From an uncultured Saprospiraceae bacterium (GTDB lineage Bacteria; Bacteroidota; Bacteroidia; Chitinophagales; Saprospiraceae), in assembly GCA_937921595.1 (NCBI GenBank), contig CAKZTD010000112.1:1-64000 (forward strand): a DNA stretch of 64,000 nucleotides. Direction: 5' to 3'. A program made the translations under genes and the position numbers. How positions within the stretch are numbered: the first letter of the stretch is position 1; each line of letters opens with the position of its first letter. Under the pieces are notes generated by a model, which did not search any database, was not told the origin of the DNA, and worked only from the letters and a program-made list of their open reading frames with translations. Below, one piece after another: positions 14,374-42,113 of this stretch.

Positions 14374-14403
14374 TAGATTAAAGGAACTAAGATTTTAAAA
14401 ACA

Positions 14404-14476
14404 CTCTTTCAAGTTTAAGCTGATCGAAGGAAGCTGTAACTTGGAAGTAGCGAATAGTGACAAGTTTGTAACTTGT
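14404..14476 (+). repeat. Dispersed repeat family 1, copy 1
   Basis: A ~73-bp element beginning CTCTTTCAAGTTTAA and ending in the near-palindrome ACAAGTTTGTAACTTGT. Related copies lie at 25494-25567, 34295-34368 and 39198-39269, all intergenic and all on the plus strand. It overlaps the apparent N-terminal extension of the next gene, which argues that the extension is not translated. Confidence 0.75.
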
Positions 14477-14524
14477 CTGCGGCATTATCCGCAAATAGAA
14501 TTAAATTTTAGAACATTAAAAAAT

Positions 14525-25473: not shown

Positions 25474-25493
25474 TTTAGAAATCAAAACCCTTA

Positions 25494-25567
25494 CTCTTTC
25501 AAGTTTAAAATCGACGATAGGAGATTGTAACTTGGAAGAAATAAATAAAGACAAGTTTGTAACTTGT
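25494..25567 (+). repeat. Dispersed repeat family 1, copy 2
   Basis: Starts CTCTTTCAAGTTTAAAAT and ends GACAAGTTTGTAACTTGTC. It occupies most of the spacer between the response regulator and the Asp-box lipoprotein and closely matches copy 1 at both ends. Confidence 0.75.
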
Positions 25568-25637
25568 CCGCTATGGTTAAAAAAAAGTATATGATACTCT
25601 CTCTATTATTACCTTTCTTATCCTTAAGATAATCAAA

Positions 25638-32927: not shown

Positions 32928-33947
32928 ATGAAATACCTAGAAGCATTTATCAATGGTTATAAAGGATACGCCAGTTATCTATGGCATGAAATTACTCACC
33001 CGGGCTGGCACAATTATTTTTATTGGTTGCTCTTAGTGTCTGTGTTTTTCTTTGCACTGGAAATTGTAAAACCATGGAGAAAAGATCAGGCTAATTTTCG
33101 AAAAGATTTCTGGTTAGACGTCTTCTACATGTTTTTCAACTTCTTTTTATTTTCCTTACTTATTTATGCTCCGATTTCGAATGTTGTTGTTGAATTTATA
33201 AAAGATGGCTTTTTTCTGGTCGGTGTAGATATCAAAGAATTAAATCCTCTGTGGAGCCTACCATTATGGGCGGTACTATTGATTGGTTTTGTGTTGAGAG
33301 ATTTTATTCAATGGTGGATTCATCGCTTATTGCACAGAGTGACTTTTCTTTGGGAATTCCATAAAGTCCATCACTCGGTTGAAGAGATGGGATTTGCGGC
33401 TCACCTTAGATATCATTGGATGGAAAATGTCGTTTACAAAAGTCTTGAGTATTTGCCATTGGCATTTTTAATAGGCTTGCGTCTCGATCAATTTTTTGTG
33501 ATCCATATTTTTACGTTGGCAGTTGGTCATTTCAATCATTCAAATATCTCTGTAAAAGGTTGGATCAAAGGTGGTATTCTCGGCTTGCTGATTGGAATTG
33601 TTTTAGGATTTAATCTGTTGGAATTGAATGTGTTTATCAACTCAACTGTCAATCCTTATATAATCGTAGCAATAGGTACGAGTATTGGAGCAATAGCTTT
33701 GGGACCGATTATGAAGTATCTTTTTAATAGCCCAGAAATGCACATATGGCACCATGCTTATGAATTGCCAAAGGGTAGGAAATATGGAATTAATTTCGGC
33801 TTGACGTTAGCGATTTGGGATTACATTTTTGGTACCGCTGAGATTCCACATGATGGAAAAGATATTCGACTTGGCTTTCCAGGGATTGAAAATTTTCCTA
33901 CTAATTTTGTAAAACAAGCAACTCATGGCTTTCATAAAGATGATTGA
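32928..33947 (+). CDS. Fatty-acid hydroxylase/sterol-desaturase family membrane enzyme
   Basis: 339 residues with several transmembrane helices (~30-47, 65-90, 115-135, 175-200, 215-255). The histidine clusters WWIHRLLHR, WEFHKVHHS and MHIWHHAY fit the di-iron HxxxH/HxxHH pattern of the family. The reaction is oxygen-dependent hydroxylation or desaturation of a lipid; the substrate is unknown (carotenoid, sterol or fatty acid). It is complete, with the start ATG preceded by an inverted repeat. Confidence 0.9.
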   Translation: MKYLEAFINGYKGYASYLWHEITHPGWHNYFYWLLLVSVFFFALEIVKPWRKDQANFRKDFWLDVFYMFFNFFLFSLLIYAPISNVVVEFIKDGFFLVGVDIKELNPLWSLPLWAVLLIGFVLRDFIQWWIHRLLHRVTFLWEFHKVHHSVEEMGFAAHLRYHWMENVVYKSLEYLPLAFLIGLRLDQFFVIHIFTLAVGHFNHSNISVKGWIKGGILGLLIGIVLGFNLLELNVFINSTVNPYIIVAIGTSIGAIALGPIMKYLFNSPEMHIWHHAYELPKGRKYGINFGLTLAIWDYIFGTAEIPHDGKDIRLGFPGIENFPTNFVKQATHGFHKDD

Positions 33948-34080: not shown

Positions 34081-34112
34081 TTGAATTTCTCAAAATAAAT
34101 ACCGTATTTTTA
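34081..34112 (+). promoter_or_regulatory. Possible promoter of the his leader region
   Basis: TTG at 34081, 21-bp spacer, then TATTTTTA at 34105. It is close to the Bacteroidota pattern (TTG, ~20 bp, TAnnTTTG) but lacks the final G. Transcription from here would include both leader peptides. Confidence 0.4.
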
Positions 34113-34143
34113 CCCTCAGTTAATTATAGATGACCACTGCAAT

Positions 34144-34200
34144 ATGATTTTAATCCAATTACATCAGAATTCACATCATTATAATACGTCTATAACGTAA
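34144..34200 (+). CDS. His-containing leader peptide 1 of the his operon
   Basis: An 18-codon frame, MILIQLHQNSHHYNTSIT, with three His codons. A terminator hairpin (34228-34261) follows. The bases around the stop codon (CGTCTATAACGTAA, 34187-34200) can pair, with small bulges, with the 5' half and loop of that terminator (34235-34248). This is the layout of ribosome-mediated attenuation: stalling at His codons frees the anti-terminator. It is weaker than leader 2 but has the same design. Confidence 0.65.
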   Translation: MILIQLHQNSHHYNTSIT

Positions 34201-34227
34201 ATGAGGAGCTGATGCAAGAACAACAAT

Positions 34228-34261
34228 AAAAGGCTTATCGTTTATACGGTAGGTCTTTTTT
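34228..34261 (+). terminator. Attenuator terminator 1
   Basis: AAAAGGCTTATCG (34228-34240) pairs through its whole length with CGGTAGGTCTTTT (34247-34259) when G-U pairs are allowed. A T-run follows. Its 5' arm shares AAAAGGCTTA with terminator 2. Confidence 0.8.
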
Positions 34262-34294
34262 AGTTTTATGAAAGAGATACATCAAGTTTTAACC

Positions 34295-34368
34295 ACTTTT
34301 TCAAGTTTAGTCGAAGGATAAGGAAGAGGTAACTTGAAAAAAGAAATAAAGACAAGTTTGTAACTTGT
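34295..34368 (+). repeat. Dispersed repeat family 1, copy 3
   Basis: The element starts ACTTTTTCAAGTTTAG and ends GACAAGTTTGTAACTTGTC. It lies exactly between the two his attenuators. Confidence 0.75.
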
Positions 34369-34424
34369 CACCAAAGAATTAAACAAAAGATAATAATAAC
34401 TGTTACAACAGTCAAATATCAGAA

Positions 34425-34487
34425 ATGAACTTTAATCAAAATTTCCATCTTCATCATCATGCTTTTGTAGAACGCTGCAAATGGTGA
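34425..34487 (+). CDS. His-rich leader peptide 2 of the his operon
   Basis: A 20-codon frame, MNFNQNFHLHHHAFVERCKW, with four His codons within five positions. The segment over its stop codon (GCAAATGGTGAG, 34477-34488) can pair with 34517-34529, the 5' arm and loop of the following terminator. So a ribosome stalled at the His codons would favour anti-termination, and one reaching the stop would allow termination. This is a standard histidine attenuator, read directly from the sequence. Confidence 0.88.
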   Translation: MNFNQNFHLHHHAFVERCKW

Positions 34488-34510
34488 GGAAGGTATATCT
34501 ATACGTTCTG

Positions 34511-34547
34511 AAAAGGCTTACCATTTTGCAATGGTAAGCCTTTTTTT
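34511..34547 (+). terminator. Attenuator terminator 2 before hisG
   Basis: A 15-bp perfect stem AAAAGGCTTACCATT/AATGGTAAGCCTTTT with loop TTGC, followed by T7. It lies 24 bases after leader 2 and ~115 bp before hisG. Confidence 0.92.
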
Positions 34548-34630: not shown

Positions 34631-34666
34631 GTCATTTCGAGCGAATAAATTAAGTCGAAAAATGAC
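34631..34666. repeat. Inverted repeat covering the hisG start codon
   Basis: GTCATTTCGA (34631-34640) and TCGAAAAATGAC (34655-34666) form an imperfect hairpin. The hisG ATG (34662) lies in the right arm. A sister element covers the hisA start (39918-39951). Confidence 0.65.
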
Positions 34667-35519
34667 AACATTAAGATTAGCAATCCAAAAATCAGGAAGA
34701 CTAAGTGATGCTTCCAAAGGCCTTCTTAAAGAATGCGGAATCAATCTCCAAAATGGGAAAAATAAATTACTCGCTCCAGCAGTCAATTTTCCACTAGAAA
34801 TACTATACCTCCGAGATGATGACATTCCACAATATGTAGAAGATGGAATCGCAGATATCGGAATACTCGGAGAAAATGTAGTCGCCGAATCTGCAAAGAA
34901 TATCATGGTCAAACAAAAACTAGGTTTCTCAAAATGCCGATTATCTCTTGCCATTGCAAAGAGTGAAGAATTTACCGATCTCTCTTGGTTTCAATCCAAA
35001 AAAATCGCAACCTCCTATCCTCAAATCTTATCTGACTATCTTTTAAAAAATAACATCCAATGCGAAATTCACAAAATCAGTGGCTCTGTAGAAATTGCAC
35101 CAAGTATCGGATTAGCAGATGCCGTTTGTGATATCGTGAGTTCAGGTAGCACCCTTTTCAGCAATGGACTTAAAGAAGTGAAAGTCATCATGCGATCCGA
35201 AGCGGTCCTTGTTGCCAATGAAAATATGTCAATTGATAAACAAGCAATTCTCAATCAATTTCTATTCAGAATAGAATCGGTCAACCGAGCCAAATCCAGT
35301 AAATACATCATCTTAAACGCACCTAACGAAAAGGTAAAAGAAATCAGCAACTTGCTCCCAGGAATGCGAAGCCCAACGGTCGTCTCCTTATCAGAACCAG
35401 GCTGGTCCGCGATCCATTCCGTAGTCAACGAACAAAAATTCTGGGAGGTCATCGATCAACTAAAATCCAAAGGCGCCGAAGGCATCCTAGTTGTCCCCAT
35501 AGAAAAAATGATCCTCTAA
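34662..35519 (+). CDS. hisG: ATP phosphoribosyltransferase
   Basis: 285 residues, the long form with a C-terminal regulatory ACT-like domain (~210-285, ending GAEGILVVPIEKMIL). It catalyses the first step of histidine synthesis, ATP plus PRPP to phosphoribosyl-ATP. Family motifs are the N-terminal LRLAIQKSGRLSD, DIGILGENV and SGSVEIAPSIGLADAVCDIVSSGSTL, the last being the PRPP-binding loop. The long form is usually active alone, without HisZ, and is feedback-inhibited by histidine. It is the first gene of the operon, behind two attenuators; its ATG lies inside an inverted repeat. Confidence 0.96.
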   Translation: MTTLRLAIQKSGRLSDASKGLLKECGINLQNGKNKLLAPAVNFPLEILYLRDDDIPQYVEDGIADIGILGENVVAESAKNIMVKQKLGFSKCRLSLAIAKSEEFTDLSWFQSKKIATSYPQILSDYLLKNNIQCEIHKISGSVEIAPSIGLADAVCDIVSSGSTLFSNGLKEVKVIMRSEAVLVANENMSIDKQAILNQFLFRIESVNRAKSSKYIILNAPNEKVKEISNLLPGMRSPTVVSLSEPGWSAIHSVVNEQKFWEVIDQLKSKGAEGILVVPIEKMIL

Positions 35520-35530
35520 TCAATACCCGA

Positions 35531-35592
35531 AGAACCTAAAGGACTCAACGCAATAACTTCAACACATCCAGAGCCTGAAAGGCTCCACGCAA
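35531..35592 (+). repeat. Two tandem hairpin units before hisDC
   Basis: The units AGAACCTAAAGGACTCAACG and AGAGCCTGAAAGGCTCCACG are degenerate copies 39 bp apart. The second forms the stem GAGCC/GGCTC. They fill the hisG-hisDC spacer. Confidence 0.65.
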
Positions 35593-35602
35593 AAAAGAAA
35601 AA

Positions 35603-38008
35603 ATGATACTCAAAAATAATCCACCAAAATCTCAATGGTCCAATATCCTAAAACGGCCCACCATAGAAACCAAAGATCTAGAATCTGCAGTCAGTAAAAT
35701 CATGCAACAAGTAAAAGTCCAAGGAGACCAATCCCTGATTGAACTAACAACAAAATTCGACAAAGTCCAATTGTCAATACTCCAAGTAAACAAAGAAGAA
35801 ATAACTGCAGCGATTCAGCAAGTCGACCCAAAATTAAAAGCGGCGATCCAACAAGCTAAAGCAAATATCGAACAGTTTCACACCGCTCAAAAAGAAGAAA
35901 CCAAAATCATCGAAACGATGCCAGGTGTCCAATGTTGGAGAAAAAGTGTAGCCATAGAAAAAGTCGGCCTATACATTCCTGGAGGAACAGCACCCTTGTT
36001 TTCGACAGTTTTAATGCTAGGCGTACCAGCACAAATTGCAGGCTGTTCCGAAATCATCCTATGTACACCACCACAAAAGGACGGCACAATAAATCCAGCC
36101 ATTTTATATACCGCAGACCTCGTTGGAATCACCAAGGTTTTTAAAGTCGGAGGTGCTCAGGCTATCGCCGCGATGGCCTATGGAACAGAAACTATTCCTG
36201 CAATAAATAAAATATTCGGACCAGGTAACCAATATGTCACCGAAGCAAAACAACAAGCGAGTAGAGCAGGAGTTGCGATTGATTTGCCGGCAGGACCTTC
36301 AGAAGTTTTAGTGGTAGCAGATGGATCTGCAGAACCAGCTTTTGTTGCTGCTGATCTTTTATCACAAGCAGAACATGGGGCGGATAGCCAAGTAGTTTTA
36401 ATTGCTTTTGAAGAAGATTTTGTAACAGAGGTAAACGCTGAGATTGGAAACCAAATAGAAGCATTACCAAGGAAATCAATCGCTCAGGAGGCTTTAAAAA
36501 ACAGTGTTGCGATTATCGTAGAAAATAAAAAAGAAGCTTTAGATTTAATAAATTTTTATGCTCCAGAACACTTAATTGTAGCGACTGACAAGGCAGAATT
36601 ATTTGCTGAAAACATCAAAAATGCAGGTTCTGTTTTTCTTGGAAATTACACGCCAGAGTCAGCAGGCGATTATGCTTCAGGAACAAACCATACCTTACCA
36701 ACAAATGGTTATGCAGCAGCATATAGTGGCGTTTCTTTAGATAGCTTTGTCAAAAAAATAACCTTCCAAAAAATTACAAAAATGGGCTTGCAAAACCTTG
36801 GCCCAAGCATAGAACTTATGGCAGCAGCGGAACAATTAGAGGCACATAAAAATGCTATTTCTATTCGGCTAAAGTCGGACAATAATTTAAAGGATGACTT
36901 GGCGCAGTTAGGGGAGATAAAACAAACTCCGATTAGTTCTCTAGTCCGCCGAGACCTCAAAGATTTTCTGCCTTATTCTTCTGCTAGAGATGAATTTGAA
37001 GGTACAGCGGAAGTCTACCTCGATGCCAATGAAAACCCATTTCAAACAAATCTTAACCGCTATCCTGACCCGATGCAAAAAGATTTAAAGAATAAAATTG
37101 GGGAGCTAAAAGGAATCAAATCTTCTAAAATTTTTCTTGGAAACGGAAGCGATGAAGCGATCGATTTATTGATCCGATTGTTTTGTGAAAGAGGGAACGA
37201 TAGTATTTTGATACTACCTCCAACTTATGGTGTGTATAGCGTTTTTGCAAAAATAGCAGGCGTACAAGTGAAGACTTTAGCCTTGGATAAAAATTTTCAA
37301 CCATCAATAGAAGCTTTAAATAATCTGGGTTCGAAAAATTCAAAAATTCTTTTCATTTGCAATCCGAATAACCCGACAGGTAGTATAATTTCTATAAAAA
37401 AGATACAAGAAATTATTAGCAATTTTTCAGGAATAGTTGTGGTAGATGAGGCTTATATAGATTTTTCTGAAACGCAGTCTTGTATTTCTTTAATAGATCA
37501 AAATCCAAACCTTGTTGTCCTTCAAACTTTTTCAAAAGCATGGGGACTTGCAGGCTTAAGGCTTGGGATGGCTTTCTCAAATCCTGATTTGATCAATTGG
37601 ATTAACAAGATTAAAATGCCATACAATATCAATTCCTTGACGCAGCAGACGGTTTTAGAAAAACTAGAAAATAAAGGACAAGTACTTCAGGAAATTCAAA
37701 CGATCAAAAATGAAAGAGCGAAACTCGATCAGCGATTAAAAGATTTCAATTTTATAAAAAAAGTATTTCCATCAGAAGCCAACTTTATTCTTGCAGAAAC
37801 TTCAAACGCAGACGAACTATATGATTTTTTATTGAAAAAAGGAATTATTGTGAGAAATCGATCTAAGCAATTCAACTGTGAAAATTGCCTTCGATTTACT
37901 ATCGGAACCTCAAAAGAAAATCAAAAATTAATCACAGCACTTAAAGTCTATCAGGAAATATTGAATTCAAGAATAGAAAACCAAAAGACAAACCTTCAAT
38001 CTTTATAA
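35603..38008 (+). CDS. hisDC: Fused histidinol dehydrogenase / histidinol-phosphate aminotransferase
   Basis: 801 residues in one frame. Residues 1-~425 are HisD: zinc/substrate residues in SQAEHGADS, catalytic Glu-His in YAPEHLIV, GDYASGTNHTLPT, and the late His in EQLEAHKNAISIRL. Residues ~450-795 are HisC: PYSSARDEFEG, YLDANENPF, CNPNNPTG, DEAYIDF and the PLP lysine in FSKAWGLAGLRLG (~644). The linker (~425-455) has no stop or clear restart. HisC makes histidinol phosphate from imidazole-acetol phosphate; HisD oxidises histidinol to histidine. Separate genes are the rule, so the fusion is notable. Both halves keep their key residues. A sequencing error could mimic fusion only by removing a stop or frameshift. 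Confidence 0.93.
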   Translation: MILKNNPPKSQWSNILKRPTIETKDLESAVSKIMQQVKVQGDQSLIELTTKFDKVQLSILQVNKEEITAAIQQVDPKLKAAIQQAKANIEQFHTAQKEETKIIETMPGVQCWRKSVAIEKVGLYIPGGTAPLFSTVLMLGVPAQIAGCSEIILCTPPQKDGTINPAILYTADLVGITKVFKVGGAQAIAAMAYGTETIPAINKIFGPGNQYVTEAKQQASRAGVAIDLPAGPSEVLVVADGSAEPAFVAADLLSQAEHGADSQVVLIAFEEDFVTEVNAEIGNQIEALPRKSIAQEALKNSVAIIVENKKEALDLINFYAPEHLIVATDKAELFAENIKNAGSVFLGNYTPESAGDYASGTNHTLPTNGYAAAYSGVSLDSFVKKITFQKITKMGLQNLGPSIELMAAAEQLEAHKNAISIRLKSDNNLKDDLAQLGEIKQTPISSLVRRDLKDFLPYSSARDEFEGTAEVYLDANENPFQTNLNRYPDPMQKDLKNKIGELKGIKSSKIFLGNGSDEAIDLLIRLFCERGNDSILILPPTYGVYSVFAKIAGVQVKTLALDKNFQPSIEALNNLGSKNSKILFICNPNNPTGSIISIKKIQEIISNFSGIVVVDEAYIDFSETQSCISLIDQNPNLVVLQTFSKAWGLAGLRLGMAFSNPDLINWINKIKMPYNINSLTQQTVLEKLENKGQVLQEIQTIKNERAKLDQRLKDFNFIKKVFPSEANFILAETSNADELYDFLLKKGIIVRNRSKQFNCENCLRFTIGTSKENQKLITALKVYQEILNSRIENQKTNLQSL

Positions 38009-38017
38009 AATAAAATC

Positions 38018-39136
38018 ATGAAAAAAATACTCTTCATAGATCGTGATGGAACACTCATTATCGAACCACCAAGCGATTATCAAGTAGACGCTTTTGAAAA
38101 ACTGGAATACTATCCAAAGGTTTTTCAATATCTGTCAAAAATCGTCAAGGAATTCGATTATGAATTAGTCATGATTACCAACCAAGATGGCTTAGGAACA
38201 GACAGCTTTCCAGAAGATACTTTTTGGCCCGTTCATAATAAAATGCTGGAAGCTTTTAAAAATGAAGGTGTTGAATTTTCAGAAGTCATCATCGATAAAA
38301 CCTTCCCAGAGGAGAATGCTCCAACTCGAAAACCAGGAACAGCTCTGCTGACAAAATATATGGAAGGGAATTATGATTTAGAAAATTCATATGTGCTCGG
38401 CGATAGGCTTTCGGATATTCAATTAGCGAAAAACCTTAAGGCTAAAGGTATTCTAATTCAAAATAAAGAAACGGTTGACCTCCAAGCAGGTTTAGAAGAT
38501 ACCTGTATGTTGACGACGCTTGATTGGTCAGAAATTTATGAATTTTTAAAATTTAAAAACCGAACAGCCAGCGTCAGCAGAACAACTTCAGAAACAGATA
38601 TATCGATTGATCTTTTACTCGATGGTTCTGGACAATCCGTAATTAGCACTGGTCTAGGTTTTTTTGATCACATGCTTGAACAAATCGCAAAACACTCTGG
38701 TGCAGATATCAAAATTAAAGTCAAAGGTGATCTTCACATCGATGAGCACCACACGATCGAAGATACAGCATTGGCTTTAGGTGAAGCTTTCGGCCAAGCA
38801 CTCGGGAATAAAGAAAGCATAGAACGTTATGGCTTCTGTTTGCCAATGGATGACTGCCTCGCTCAGGTTGCATTGGATTTTGGAGGCCGCCCATGGCTGG
38901 TCTGGGATGCCAATTTCAAAAGAGAAAAAATAGGCGACATGCCCACAGAAATGTTTATGCATTTTTTTAAATCATTTTCAGATGCCTCAAAGAGCAACCT
39001 TAATATAAAAGTCGAAGGCAACAACGAGCATCACAAAATAGAAGCCATTTTCAAAGCATTCGCCAAAGCAATAAAAATGGCCATCCGAAGAGATGTCAGA
39101 AACGTAAAAATGCCAAGCACCAAAGGAATAATTTAA
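38018..39136 (+). CDS. hisB: Bifunctional histidinol-phosphatase / imidazoleglycerol-phosphate dehydratase
   Basis: 372 residues. The N-terminal ~165 residues are a HAD phosphatase ([29 protein letters not shown]). The C-terminal ~200 residues are the dehydratase, with metal-binding HHTIED and HHKIEA motifs plus [14 protein letters not shown]. It thus supplies two steps: dehydration of IGP and dephosphorylation of histidinol phosphate. The fused form is known from Proteobacteria and Bacteroidota. It starts 10 bp after hisDC. Confidence 0.96.
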
Positions 39137-39149
39137 TTTCTTTTTTTTA

Positions 39150-39286
39150 AGATTTGTTCTTCGTGTCTTAGCGCCTTTGTGGCAAAAAAAAACTCCACTC
39201 TTTTAAGTTTAAACCCGACCAAAAGAGGGTGTAACTTGAAAGTTTGAATAATGCAAATTTGTAACTGGTACTTCTAAAAAAACAAA
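39150..39286 (+). repeat. Repeat-filled spacer hisB-hisH, including family 1 copy 4 (39198-39269)
   Basis: TTCGTGTCTTAGCGCCTTTG is a short motif that resembles, in complement, 10735-10765. The family 1 element follows (CTCTTTTAAGTTTAAACC to GTAACTGGT), the most diverged of the four copies. Confidence 0.65.
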
Positions 39287-39889
39287 ATGCTCAATAAAAA
39301 GTCAAAAATATCAATTATCGACTATAAAGCCGGCAACGTCCAATCCGTCCTCTTCGCCCTCCAGAGGTTAGGAATAGAAGCCACACTTTCCGACGACCCA
39401 GAAGTGATTCAAAATGCAGAGAAAGTCATCTTTCCGGGGGTAGGAGAAGCTTCGACAACGATGGCTGTTTTAAAAGAAAAAGGTTTAGACAAAGTGATCA
39501 AAAAACTTAAACAACCTGTGTTAGGAATCTGCCTCGGCATGCAACTCCTTTGCGAATACTCAGAAGAAAATGACACGCAATGTCTTGGCATTATTCCTCA
39601 AAAAGTAAAATACTTCGAAGCCAATAAAAACGAAAAAGTACCACACATGGGATGGAATCAAATTTATGATTTGAAAACTCCTTTGTTTGATAATCAACTA
39701 GAAAATGAATACACTTATTTCGTACACGGCTACTACGTCGAGGAAGGAGCCTATACGATTGCTACGGCGAATTACATTCAACCATTCAGTGCAGCAATCA
39801 AAAAAGATAATTTCTACGCCACCCAATTCCACCCCGAAAAATCAGGGACCATCGGCGAGCAAATACTAAAGAATTTTTTGTCACTTTAA
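39287..39889 (+). CDS. hisH: Imidazole glycerol phosphate synthase, glutaminase subunit
   Basis: 200 residues, a class I glutamine amidotransferase. The catalytic Cys is in GICLGMQLL, and the His and Glu in QFHPEKS; the oxyanion motif is PGVGEAS. It makes ammonia from glutamine for HisF. The length is normal. It is separated from hisB by a repeat-rich spacer but in operon order. Confidence 0.96.
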   Translation: MLNKKSKISIIDYKAGNVQSVLFALQRLGIEATLSDDPEVIQNAEKVIFPGVGEASTTMAVLKEKGLDKVIKKLKQPVLGICLGMQLLCEYSEENDTQCLGIIPQKVKYFEANKNEKVPHMGWNQIYDLKTPLFDNQLENEYTYFVHGYYVEEGAYTIATANYIQPFSAAIKKDNFYATQFHPEKSGTIGEQILKNFLSL

Positions 39890-39917
39890 TTAATCACGAA
39901 ACTCCAAGGAATGAATT

Positions 39918-39951
39918 GTCATTTCGAGGGAGTACAACGAATCGAGAAATG
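39918..39951. repeat. Inverted repeat covering the hisA start codon
   Basis: GTCATTTCGA (39918-39927) and TCGAGAAATG (39942-39951) form an imperfect hairpin that ends on the hisA ATG. Confidence 0.6.
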
Positions 39952-40656
39952 GAAATAATACCAGCAATAGATCTAATAAACGCCCAAGCCGTTCGCCTCT
40001 CCCAAGGAGATTACAACAGGCAGACTACTTATAACGAGAACCCGCTCGAAGTAGCTCAGAAATTTGAATCCTTAGGGATTAAAAAACTACACCTCGTCGA
40101 TCTTGATGGAGCTAAAGCAAAACGAGTGATCAATGAAAAAGTACTCCAACAAATTGCTAAAAACACAAAGCTTGAAATCGAATTCGGCGGAGGAATCAAA
40201 ACTGATGAAGACTTGCAAAAAGTATTCGATAGTGGAGCAACCCAAGCGATCATAGGAACCATCGCAGTGAAGAATCCTAAGCTGTTTTTTAAATGGCTAG
40301 AAAAATTTGGCCCTGAAAAAATAATCCTAGGCGCAGATGTCAAAGAAGAGAAATTAGCGGTGAATGGGTGGCTCGAAACCAGTGAGATTAGCATTTTTGA
40401 TTTTTTAAAAACAAATGAAAACCAAGGCGTCAAACATGTTATATGTACCGATATTTCTAAAGATGGAATGCTTGGGGGAACTTCTGTTGATTTGTACAAA
40501 AAACTCATGGCAGAATTTCCAAAATTAAATATCATCGCTAGCGGTGGCGTCGCATCTATGGAGGACATTCAACAACTAGAAGCCATCAATTGCAAATCCG
40601 TCGTCGTCGGTAAAGCCATTTATGAAGGAAAAATAAAATTGAGCGAATTACTTTAA
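39949..40656 (+). CDS. hisA: ProFAR isomerase
   Basis: 235 residues from the ATG at 39949 (MEIIPAIDLINAQAVRLSQGDY). The frame extends to 39916, but only through the inverted repeat. It is a TIM barrel with the two phosphate-binding repeats (EFGGGIK and ASGGVAS) and the catalytic Asp residues in AIDL and CTDISKDG. It isomerises ProFAR to PRFAR. The ATG lies in the arm of a repeat, as for hisG. Confidence 0.95.
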   Translation: MEIIPAIDLINAQAVRLSQGDYNRQTTYNENPLEVAQKFESLGIKKLHLVDLDGAKAKRVINEKVLQQIAKNTKLEIEFGGGIKTDEDLQKVFDSGATQAIIGTIAVKNPKLFFKWLEKFGPEKIILGADVKEEKLAVNGWLETSEISIFDFLKTNENQGVKHVICTDISKDGMLGGTSVDLYKKLMAEFPKLNIIASGGVASMEDIQQLEAINCKSVVVGKAIYEGKIKLSELL

Positions 40657-40723
40657 AATCAAAATCAAAGAAGGGTTTTTTGATTAAAAATCATCAATAA
40701 TCGAAAGTTGAAACTTAAGAAAT

Positions 40724-41491
40724 ATGTTAGCAAAAAGAATCATTCCTTGTCTCGATATCAAAGATGGTCGTACCGTCAAAGGAGTCAATTTTGTAGCACT
40801 TCGTGATGCCGGTGATCCTGTCGAGCAGGCAAAAATATACAGCAATCAAGGAGCCGACGAATTAGTCTTTTTGGATATCAGCGCCACCAACGAAAAAAGG
40901 AAAACACTTCGAGAACTCGTACGGAAAATTGCAGCTCAAATCAATATCCCATTTACGGTTGGAGGAGGGATAAGTTCGAGCGAAGATGTAAGTAAACTTC
41001 TACTATCTGGAGCGGATAAAATATCGATCAATTCAGCAGCTGTTCGCAATCCAAAATTAGTCGATGAGCTTTCTAAAAAATTCGGAAGCCAATGCATCAC
41101 GGTGGCCATCGATGCCAAACTAATTAAAGGTGAATGGATCGTTTACCTCAACGGCGGACGTATATCTACAGCATTAAAACTTTTCGATTGGGCCAAAGAA
41201 CTAAATGACCGAGGAGCTGGGGAAATTCTTTTTACCTCAATGGATCATGATGGTACAAAAGCTGGATTCGCTTGTGATGCACTATATCAATTATCTGAGC
41301 AATTGAGCATTCCAATCATCGCATCCGGAGGTGCAGGAACCATGAGCCATTTCAAAGATGTTTTCGAAAATGGAAAAGCAGATGCAGCCTTGGCTGCCAG
41401 TATTTTTCATTATAATGAAATCGCGATCCCAGATTTAAAAGATTATCTAAAGAAAGAAAATATCATCATCAGAAATTATCCAACCACATAA
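40724..41491 (+). CDS. hisF: Imidazole glycerol phosphate synthase, cyclase subunit
   Basis: 255 residues. A TIM barrel with catalytic Asp in PCLDIKDGR and in [10 protein letters not shown], and phosphate-binding GGGISS and ASGGAGT. With HisH it makes IGP and AICAR. The gene ends in ACC ACA TAA, overlapping three tandem ACCACATA units. Confidence 0.97.
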
Positions 41492-41506
41492 CCACATAAC
41501 CACATA
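41483..41506 (+). repeat. Three tandem ACCACATA units at the end of hisF
   Basis: Three perfect 8-bp copies overlap the last codons and stop of hisF. They share the word ACCACATAA with the inverted repeat at 26725. Confidence 0.85.
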
Positions 41507-41516
41507 ATTAATAATC

Positions 41517-42113
41517 ATGATTAATAAAATAAATTTCAAAAAATCAAACGGTCTAGTTCCCGTCATTATTCAAGACAGTACTACCTGTAAAGTTCTTATG
41601 CTCGCATACATGAACGAAGCAGCTTTTCTGAAAACCATGGAAACCAAACTCGTGACTTTCTACAGTCGTTCCAGAAAAGAACTTTGGATAAAAGGCGAAA
41701 CCAGCGGTAATTTTTTAAAAATGCAAAGTATCAAATTAGACTGTGATCAAGATACTTTGTTGATAAAAGTAATTCCAACAGGTCCAGTATGTCACACCGG
41801 AACGGATACTTGTTTTGAAGAAGAAAATAAAGCGGATGGCTTTTTATACCAATTAGAAAAAGTGATTCAAGATCGTAAAAATGAAGATGAAGGTAAATCC
41901 TACACGGCTTCTCTTTTTAAAAAAGGAATCAATAAAATCGCCCAGAAAGTAGGAGAGGAGGCTGTAGAATTGGTCATCGAATCCAAAGACGATAATAAAG
42001 ATCTTTTTTTGAATGAAGCAGCAGATTTGATGTATCACTATCTAGTGCTTTTGGCAGCGAAGGATTTTAAATTAGAAGATGTTGTTGATGTTTTGAAAAG
42101 TCGACAGAAGTAG
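41517..42113 (+). CDS. hisIE: Phosphoribosyl-AMP cyclohydrolase / phosphoribosyl-ATP pyrophosphatase
   Basis: 198 residues. HisI part (1-~105): YMNEAAF, SRSRKELWIKGETSGN and the metal-binding LDCDQDT and CHTGTDTCF motifs. HisE part (~110-198): SYTASLFKKGINKIAQKVGEEAVELVIE and DLMYHYLVLL. It does steps two and three of the pathway. It is the last gene of the operon; with it all ten steps are covered. Confidence 0.96.
   Translation: MINKINFKKSNGLVPVIIQDSTTCKVLMLAYMNEAAFLKTMETKLVTFYSRSRKELWIKGETSGNFLKMQSIKLDCDQDTLLIKVIPTGPVCHTGTDTCFEEENKADGFLYQLEKVIQDRKNEDEGKSYTASLFKKGINKIAQKVGEEAVELVIESKDDNKDLFLNEAADLMYHYLVLLAAKDFKLEDVVDVLKSRQK

Follow-up and report, generated by a model that had tools for sequence, protein, structure and literature searches.

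Two predicted histidine attenuators in tandem ahead of the his operon of an uncultured Saprospiraceae bacterium

We analysed a 64,000-nt stretch of DNA (the window) from an uncultured Saprospiraceae bacterium, in which two leader ORFs with His codons, each followed by its own intrinsic terminator, precede a complete his operon. The operon (34662–42113, + strand) comprises hisG, a fused hisD-hisC, hisB, hisH, hisA, hisF and hisIE; hisG starts at 34662, hisIE ends at 42113, and the fused hisD-hisC is a single gene of 801 codons (35603–38008 of the window). Tandem his attenuators before this one operon had been proposed in a sequence-only reading, and our analysis confirmed the arrangement: two leaders, two terminators, and two strands around the leader stop codons that are able to pair with the terminator 5′ arm. 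That reading was also right on the leader coordinates, on the number of codons and on the common start of the two terminator arms. Comparison of sequences establishes the anatomy of the pair, its conservation in the genus, the co-changing helices, and one promoter motif at a conserved place. Beyond this, we consider it likely that the two units are complete ribosome-mediated histidine attenuators acting in series on one transcript, with a response that would be steeper than that of one unit.

Results

Anatomy of the two units

Leader 1 (MILIQLHQNSHHYNTSIT; 34144–34200, + strand) runs from an ATG at 34144 to a TAA at 34198–34200 and contains 18 codons, 3 of them for His, the lowest number among the four species compared (4, 5 and 4 in the peptides of the sisters). 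It is followed by intrinsic terminator 1 (34228–34261, + strand), a stem at 34228–34259 plus a T run, for which folding predicted 13 pairs, including G-U, at −15.1 kcal/mol. Leader 2 (MNFNQNFHLHHHAFVERCKW; 34425–34487, + strand), with ATG at 34425 and TGA at 34485–34487, contains 20 codons, including 4 His within five codons; its intrinsic terminator 2 (34510–34547, + strand; stem at 34510–34545 plus T run) folded at −20.7 kcal/mol. Across the genus, leaders of both units carry 3–8 His.

Both units thus have a short ORF rich in His codons (3 of 18 and 4 of 20) and, as predicted by folding, an intrinsic terminator between the leader and the structural genes. Near the leader stop, antiterminator pairing was found in both units, with only unit 2 of the sister species G002 failing to beat shuffled sequences (p = 0.140). 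No Rfam leader family reached its gathering score in the window; the hits obtained stayed below threshold (Phe_leader, 17 of 55 bits).

The 5′ arms of both terminators contain AAAAGGCTTA, as noticed previously. This sharing is nothing special, because GGCTT occurs in the terminator 5′ arm of 60/171 non-tandem units and GGCTTA in 34/171. We therefore rejected AAAAGGCTTA as a sign of duplication; the sequence of terminator 2 also differs in G004.

Pairing and covariation of the competing helices

We investigated the pairing between bases around each leader stop codon and the 5′ arm of the following terminator, comparing the stop-codon strand against 200 dinucleotide shuffles. The strand of attenuator 1 (34197–34209, + strand), which spans the leader stop codon, pairs with 34233–34245, and that of attenuator 2 (34477–34488, + strand) pairs with 34517–34529. 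Such pairing had been claimed for both leaders, and it was borne out at −12.4 kcal/mol for unit 1 (p = 0.010) and −13.9 kcal/mol for unit 2 (p = 0.020). In the sister species, the unit 1 strand paired with bases of both the 5′ arm and the loop of its terminator, at −14.2 (G002, p = 0.005), −13.8 (G001, p = 0.025) and −14.5 kcal/mol (G004, p = 0.015), and the unit 2 values were p = 0.140, 0.015 and 0.000, respectively. Across 103 single-unit loci, the median antiterminator energy was −13.2, with p ≤ 0.05 in 47; by this measure unit 1 resembles an ordinary unit. When the terminator was excluded from the fold, a hairpin formed between the His-codon region and the stop-codon strand; both units behaved this way in each of the four species.

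The sequence-only reading had suggested folding the region and looking for covariation in relatives, and the two competing helices of unit 1 indeed change together between species. All 13 columns of the terminator 1 stem are paired in the four species, with double changes in 4. Of the 13 columns of antiterminator 1, 7 show double changes and 4 fail to pair in one or more of the species. These counts come from an alignment made by hand, which leans towards structure, because MAFFT placed the helices out of register. The double changes set G004 apart from the other three species in 4/4 columns of terminator 1 and 6/7 columns of antiterminator 1. With four genomes, and nearly all double changes separating G004, few independent covariation events are visible. 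Within this scope, the terminator and antiterminator of attenuator 1 keep their predicted pairing through double changes, mostly of one species against the other three. Similarly, mean pairing was stronger between native strands than between strands mixed across species (unit 1, −13.7 vs −10.4; unit 2, −14.1 vs −10.4), the native pair being the best in 3/4 rows for unit 1 and 2/4 rows for unit 2.

The unit 1 antiterminator of the window is the weakest of the four (−12.4 vs −13.8 to −14.5) and carries one mismatch; combined with the fewest His codons, this suggests that unit 1 may be less effective in this species than in its sisters. Carried further, attenuator 1 would function in the genus and be weakened or decaying in this organism, leaving attenuator 2 to do nearly all the work, a scenario that the repeat inserted between the units (described below) would also fit. 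We regard it as unlikely: the antiterminator still beats shuffles at p = 0.010, terminator 1 is about as stable as its counterpart in G001 (−15.1 vs −13.4 kcal/mol), and the conserved block at the leader start is intact.

Conservation of the pair in the genus and survey of the class

Five genomes were placed in the genus, four of which have hisG (the window's own, G001, G002 and G004); the fifth, G003, is 75% complete and gave no hisG match. Both units were found in the same order in 4/4 genus genomes with hisG. Leader 1 and its stem, on whose conservation the sequence-only reading had staked its claim, are accordingly present in 3/3 sister species with hisG.

The window and G004 share a homologous gene ahead of the leader, and other genes occupy this place in G001 and G002; unit 1, kept in all of them, thus stays with hisG. 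This bears on a simpler account, in which terminator 1 would serve the upstream gene, marking its end, and leader 1 would be an ORF by chance. A same-strand gene does end at 33947, ahead of leader 1, but unit 1 remains with hisG where that gene is a different one, and the His leader, the antiterminator and the promoter motif are all conserved, leaving this account scarcely credible.

We then surveyed regions upstream of hisG, counting as a unit any ORF of 8–40 codons in which some stretch of 8 codons holds 3 or more His, provided that a terminator folding at −10 kcal/mol or below starts at most 110 nt from the stop. We read 130 loci (30 including the window's own, plus 100) and 88 further in the class (28 plus 60), which are part of the hisG matches in 228/399 family genomes and 128/295 class genomes; one locus with only 34 nt of upstream sequence (L025) was dropped, leaving 217. 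One unit was present at 171 loci, none at 41 and two at 5, counts that err both ways, with a few single units resting on odd terminators (e.g. L040, L219). Of the 42 loci lacking a unit, L025 included, 29 do carry a His leader and lack a passing terminator, so that this class partly reflects the limit of the criteria. Chance units numbered 0/217 on opposite strands and 2/651 in shuffled upstream regions, a shuffle rate that predicts about 0.7 units by chance among 217 loci.

The two-unit loci are the four genus members and a weaker case in another genus (L030, genome G032). At L030 the unit 1 antiterminator gave p = 0.225 against shuffles, no good promoter motif was found before leader 1 (p = 0.382), and hisG was not matched in the other genome of that genus; we treat this locus only as a candidate. 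Among loci with upstream sequence, the highest HisG identity outside the genus (70%) belongs to G205 (L055), which has one unit.

Promoter motif and the segment between the units

A predicted promoter, TTG-N21-TATTTTTA, lies before leader 1 (34081–34112, + strand), with transcription expected to start near 34118. The consensus TTG-N17-23-TAnnTTTG, which we take to be the Bacteroidota promoter, occurred in perfect form before the leaders of 43/103 single-unit loci vs 1.0 expected from shuffles, and is therefore usable as a marker. All four genus members have the motif before leader 1 with a spacing of 21, placed 38–39 nt ahead of the ATG. It is perfect in G001 (p = 0.014) and G004 (p = 0.018); the window (p = 0.298) and G002 (p = 0.234) each deviate by one base, and neither is significant alone. 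Between terminator 1 and leader 2, the best motif in the four species had 5/6 and at most 2/3 matches (shuffle p = 0.26–0.94). By sequence, the sole promoter-like motif conserved in place thus precedes leader 1 and does not fall between the units, in keeping with the earlier proposal, which depends on a start that is not downstream of 34261.

Terminator 1 and leader 2 are separated by 54 (G002), 84 (G001) and 62 nt (G004) in the sisters and by 159 nt here. With a conserved motif before leader 1, none comparable before leader 2, and a short gap in the sisters, both units probably lie on one transcript, i.e. in series. The opposite layout, with units in parallel and a second promoter in the gap feeding unit 2 alone, could draw on the longer, repeat-containing gap of the window; however, no good motif was found in the gap of any of the four species, and 54–84 nt is all the sisters offer, making it highly improbable.

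The extra length here about equals that of a dispersed repeat, which had been reported between the units and proved real, at about 34295–34377 (+ strand). Queried with 34264–34424, the genome returned 38 matches, counting the query itself, and most of them cover 34295–34377; two of the 38 lie elsewhere in the window (25493–25587 and 14399–14477). Among 20 copies examined, this one included, 17 are outside any ORF of at least 90 codons. Among the sister genomes, only G001 has matches to the repeat, two in number and both partial; G002, G003 and G004 gave none. With many copies in the genome and near absence from the sisters, it has the look of an element inserted after both units were in place. 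We considered a Y1 transposase as its mover; the genome has two Y1_Tnp genes. As a promoter, the repeat was rejected on the poor best motif in the gap. The repeat carries an inverted pair, TTTCAAGTTT / AACTTGAAA, and a short hairpin, GACAAGTT-TGT-AACTTGTC.

A nearly invariant block at the start of leader 1

Around the start of leader 1 (34129–34158, + strand; columns −15 to +14), 27/30 columns are identical in the four species, compared with only 0/15 and 5/15 in the same stretch around leader 2. hisG of these species is 66–72% identical in DNA, with 34/277 third codon positions identical and a longest identical run of 8. A 27-nt pattern of the block, with up to 3 mismatches, was found in the 4 genus genomes and in 0/395 other family genomes. 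The block includes a putative five-codon ORF, MTTAI (34130–34147, + strand), the stop of which shares bases with the start codon of leader 1 (ATGA); this ORF is present in 4/4 genus members, as MTTTI in G004. By this comparison, constraint on the start block exceeds the needs of an attenuator. A coupled start, a protein-binding site and a trans-acting product are candidate explanations.

We rejected a helix of the block with the rest of the leader, as the best partners lay at differing places (p = 0.34–0.94 vs shuffles). As an antisense seed, the block had 45 sites with up to 2 mismatches in the four genomes, 4 of which are the leader itself, vs 9 for the reversed pattern, a control that does not preserve dinucleotides. 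Comparison of 30 of the 45 sites as loci for a shared antisense target yielded one homologous pair only, with the site inside a coding region.

The block also raises the question of whether unit 1 mainly makes an RNA of about 150 nt acting elsewhere, or responds through its invariant start to some other signal, with histidine sensing in second place. The contrast in invariant columns between the two leaders would suit such a role, as would the predicted length of the RNA terminated at unit 1, 145–152 nt in the four species, and trpL of Sinorhizobium sets a precedent for an attenuator product that acts in trans, as given in the accessible text of PMC7298713. Unit 1 nevertheless retains its His codons and antiterminator, and the 30 sites yielded no shared antisense target beyond the pair inside a coding region; we judge this role very unlikely. 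A combined reading also strikes us as doubtful: the pair would be a ribosome-based counterpart of same-ligand tandem riboswitches, and the unit 1 start block would in addition give a second input or a trans-acting RNA. If true, one leader would both sharpen the histidine response and signal histidine sufficiency elsewhere.

Discussion

Proposed mechanism

In the series arrangement that we favour, RNA polymerase would start near 34118 and meet attenuator 1, then attenuator 2, then hisG. A ribosome slowed at the His codons would open the hairpin between the His-codon region and the stop-codon strand, and the freed strand could then pair with the terminator 5′ arm, letting transcription continue. 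A ribosome that reaches the stop codon would instead cover the stop-codon strand, and the terminator would form. As only transcripts passing both units would reach hisG, the leak would be the product of two read-through probabilities. If the units act independently, simple arithmetic has the read-through probabilities multiply and the logarithmic gains add, and the response to charged tRNA-His would be steeper than with one unit.

Comparison with known systems

Each unit resembles the hisL-type attenuator of Salmonella and E. coli, with a His-codon leader, a stop-codon strand competing for the terminator 5′ arm, and an intrinsic terminator before hisG; unlike a single hisL-type attenuator, two complete units stand here before one operon, and they match no Rfam leader family. 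The mgtCBR leader of Salmonella, as described in the accessible portion of PMC3641672, likewise holds two short-ORF attenuators in one leader, which act independently. Those attenuators respond to ATP and proline signals through stem-loops that are not intrinsic-terminator-like, whereas both leaders here are His-coded and have intrinsic terminators. The mefA/msrD system also combines two leader-peptide attenuators and a related signal in one operon; according to the available text of PMC10314930, they sense macrolides and precede different genes, the second controlling msrD only, in contrast to the pair before hisG. Together with mgtCBR, the closest known cases are the same-ligand tandem riboswitches called 'pseudo-cooperative' in the text available for PMC9481103, in which two complete sensors with their own terminators stand in series for one signal, and for which a steeper response is described or expected. 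There the RNA itself binds the ligand, whereas the proposed sensor here is the translating ribosome.

In the literature on paired leader-peptide attenuators and on Bacteroidetes his leaders, a search that reached few subscription papers found no same-amino-acid pair before one operon. By term search of the accessible text, 'tandem' and 'series' are absent from a model of attenuation sensitivity (PMC1183508), and leaders are not mentioned in a paper on his genes of this group (PMC8305728). In the text available for a survey of premature terminators, 'tandem' denotes a second rimP terminator and transcription starts (PMC2965389), and the accessible part of PMC4833913 cites a comparative study of amino acid attenuators that could cover Bacteroidota. 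The locus lends itself to asking, in a natural setting, whether control becomes more switch-like when two ribosome-mediated attenuators for the same amino acid are placed in series, with the single-unit relatives as controls.

Histidine leaders elsewhere in the class

The 171 single-unit loci among the 217 regions suggest that attenuators of the leader-peptide type are frequent before the his genes of this class of Bacteroidota. His-rich leaders ending in HHSS lie upstream of hisG at eight loci (L040, L046, L175, L177, L192, L196, L206 and L219). Since 6/8 have no terminator passing the unit criteria, the his operons with such leaders may use another read-out. At L027, L030, L043, L045, L047, L048 and L050, 7 of the 8 loci scanned, the his leader is preceded by a tRNA-Phe (GAA) gene on the same strand, the seven having been picked for tRNA-like upstream ORFs.
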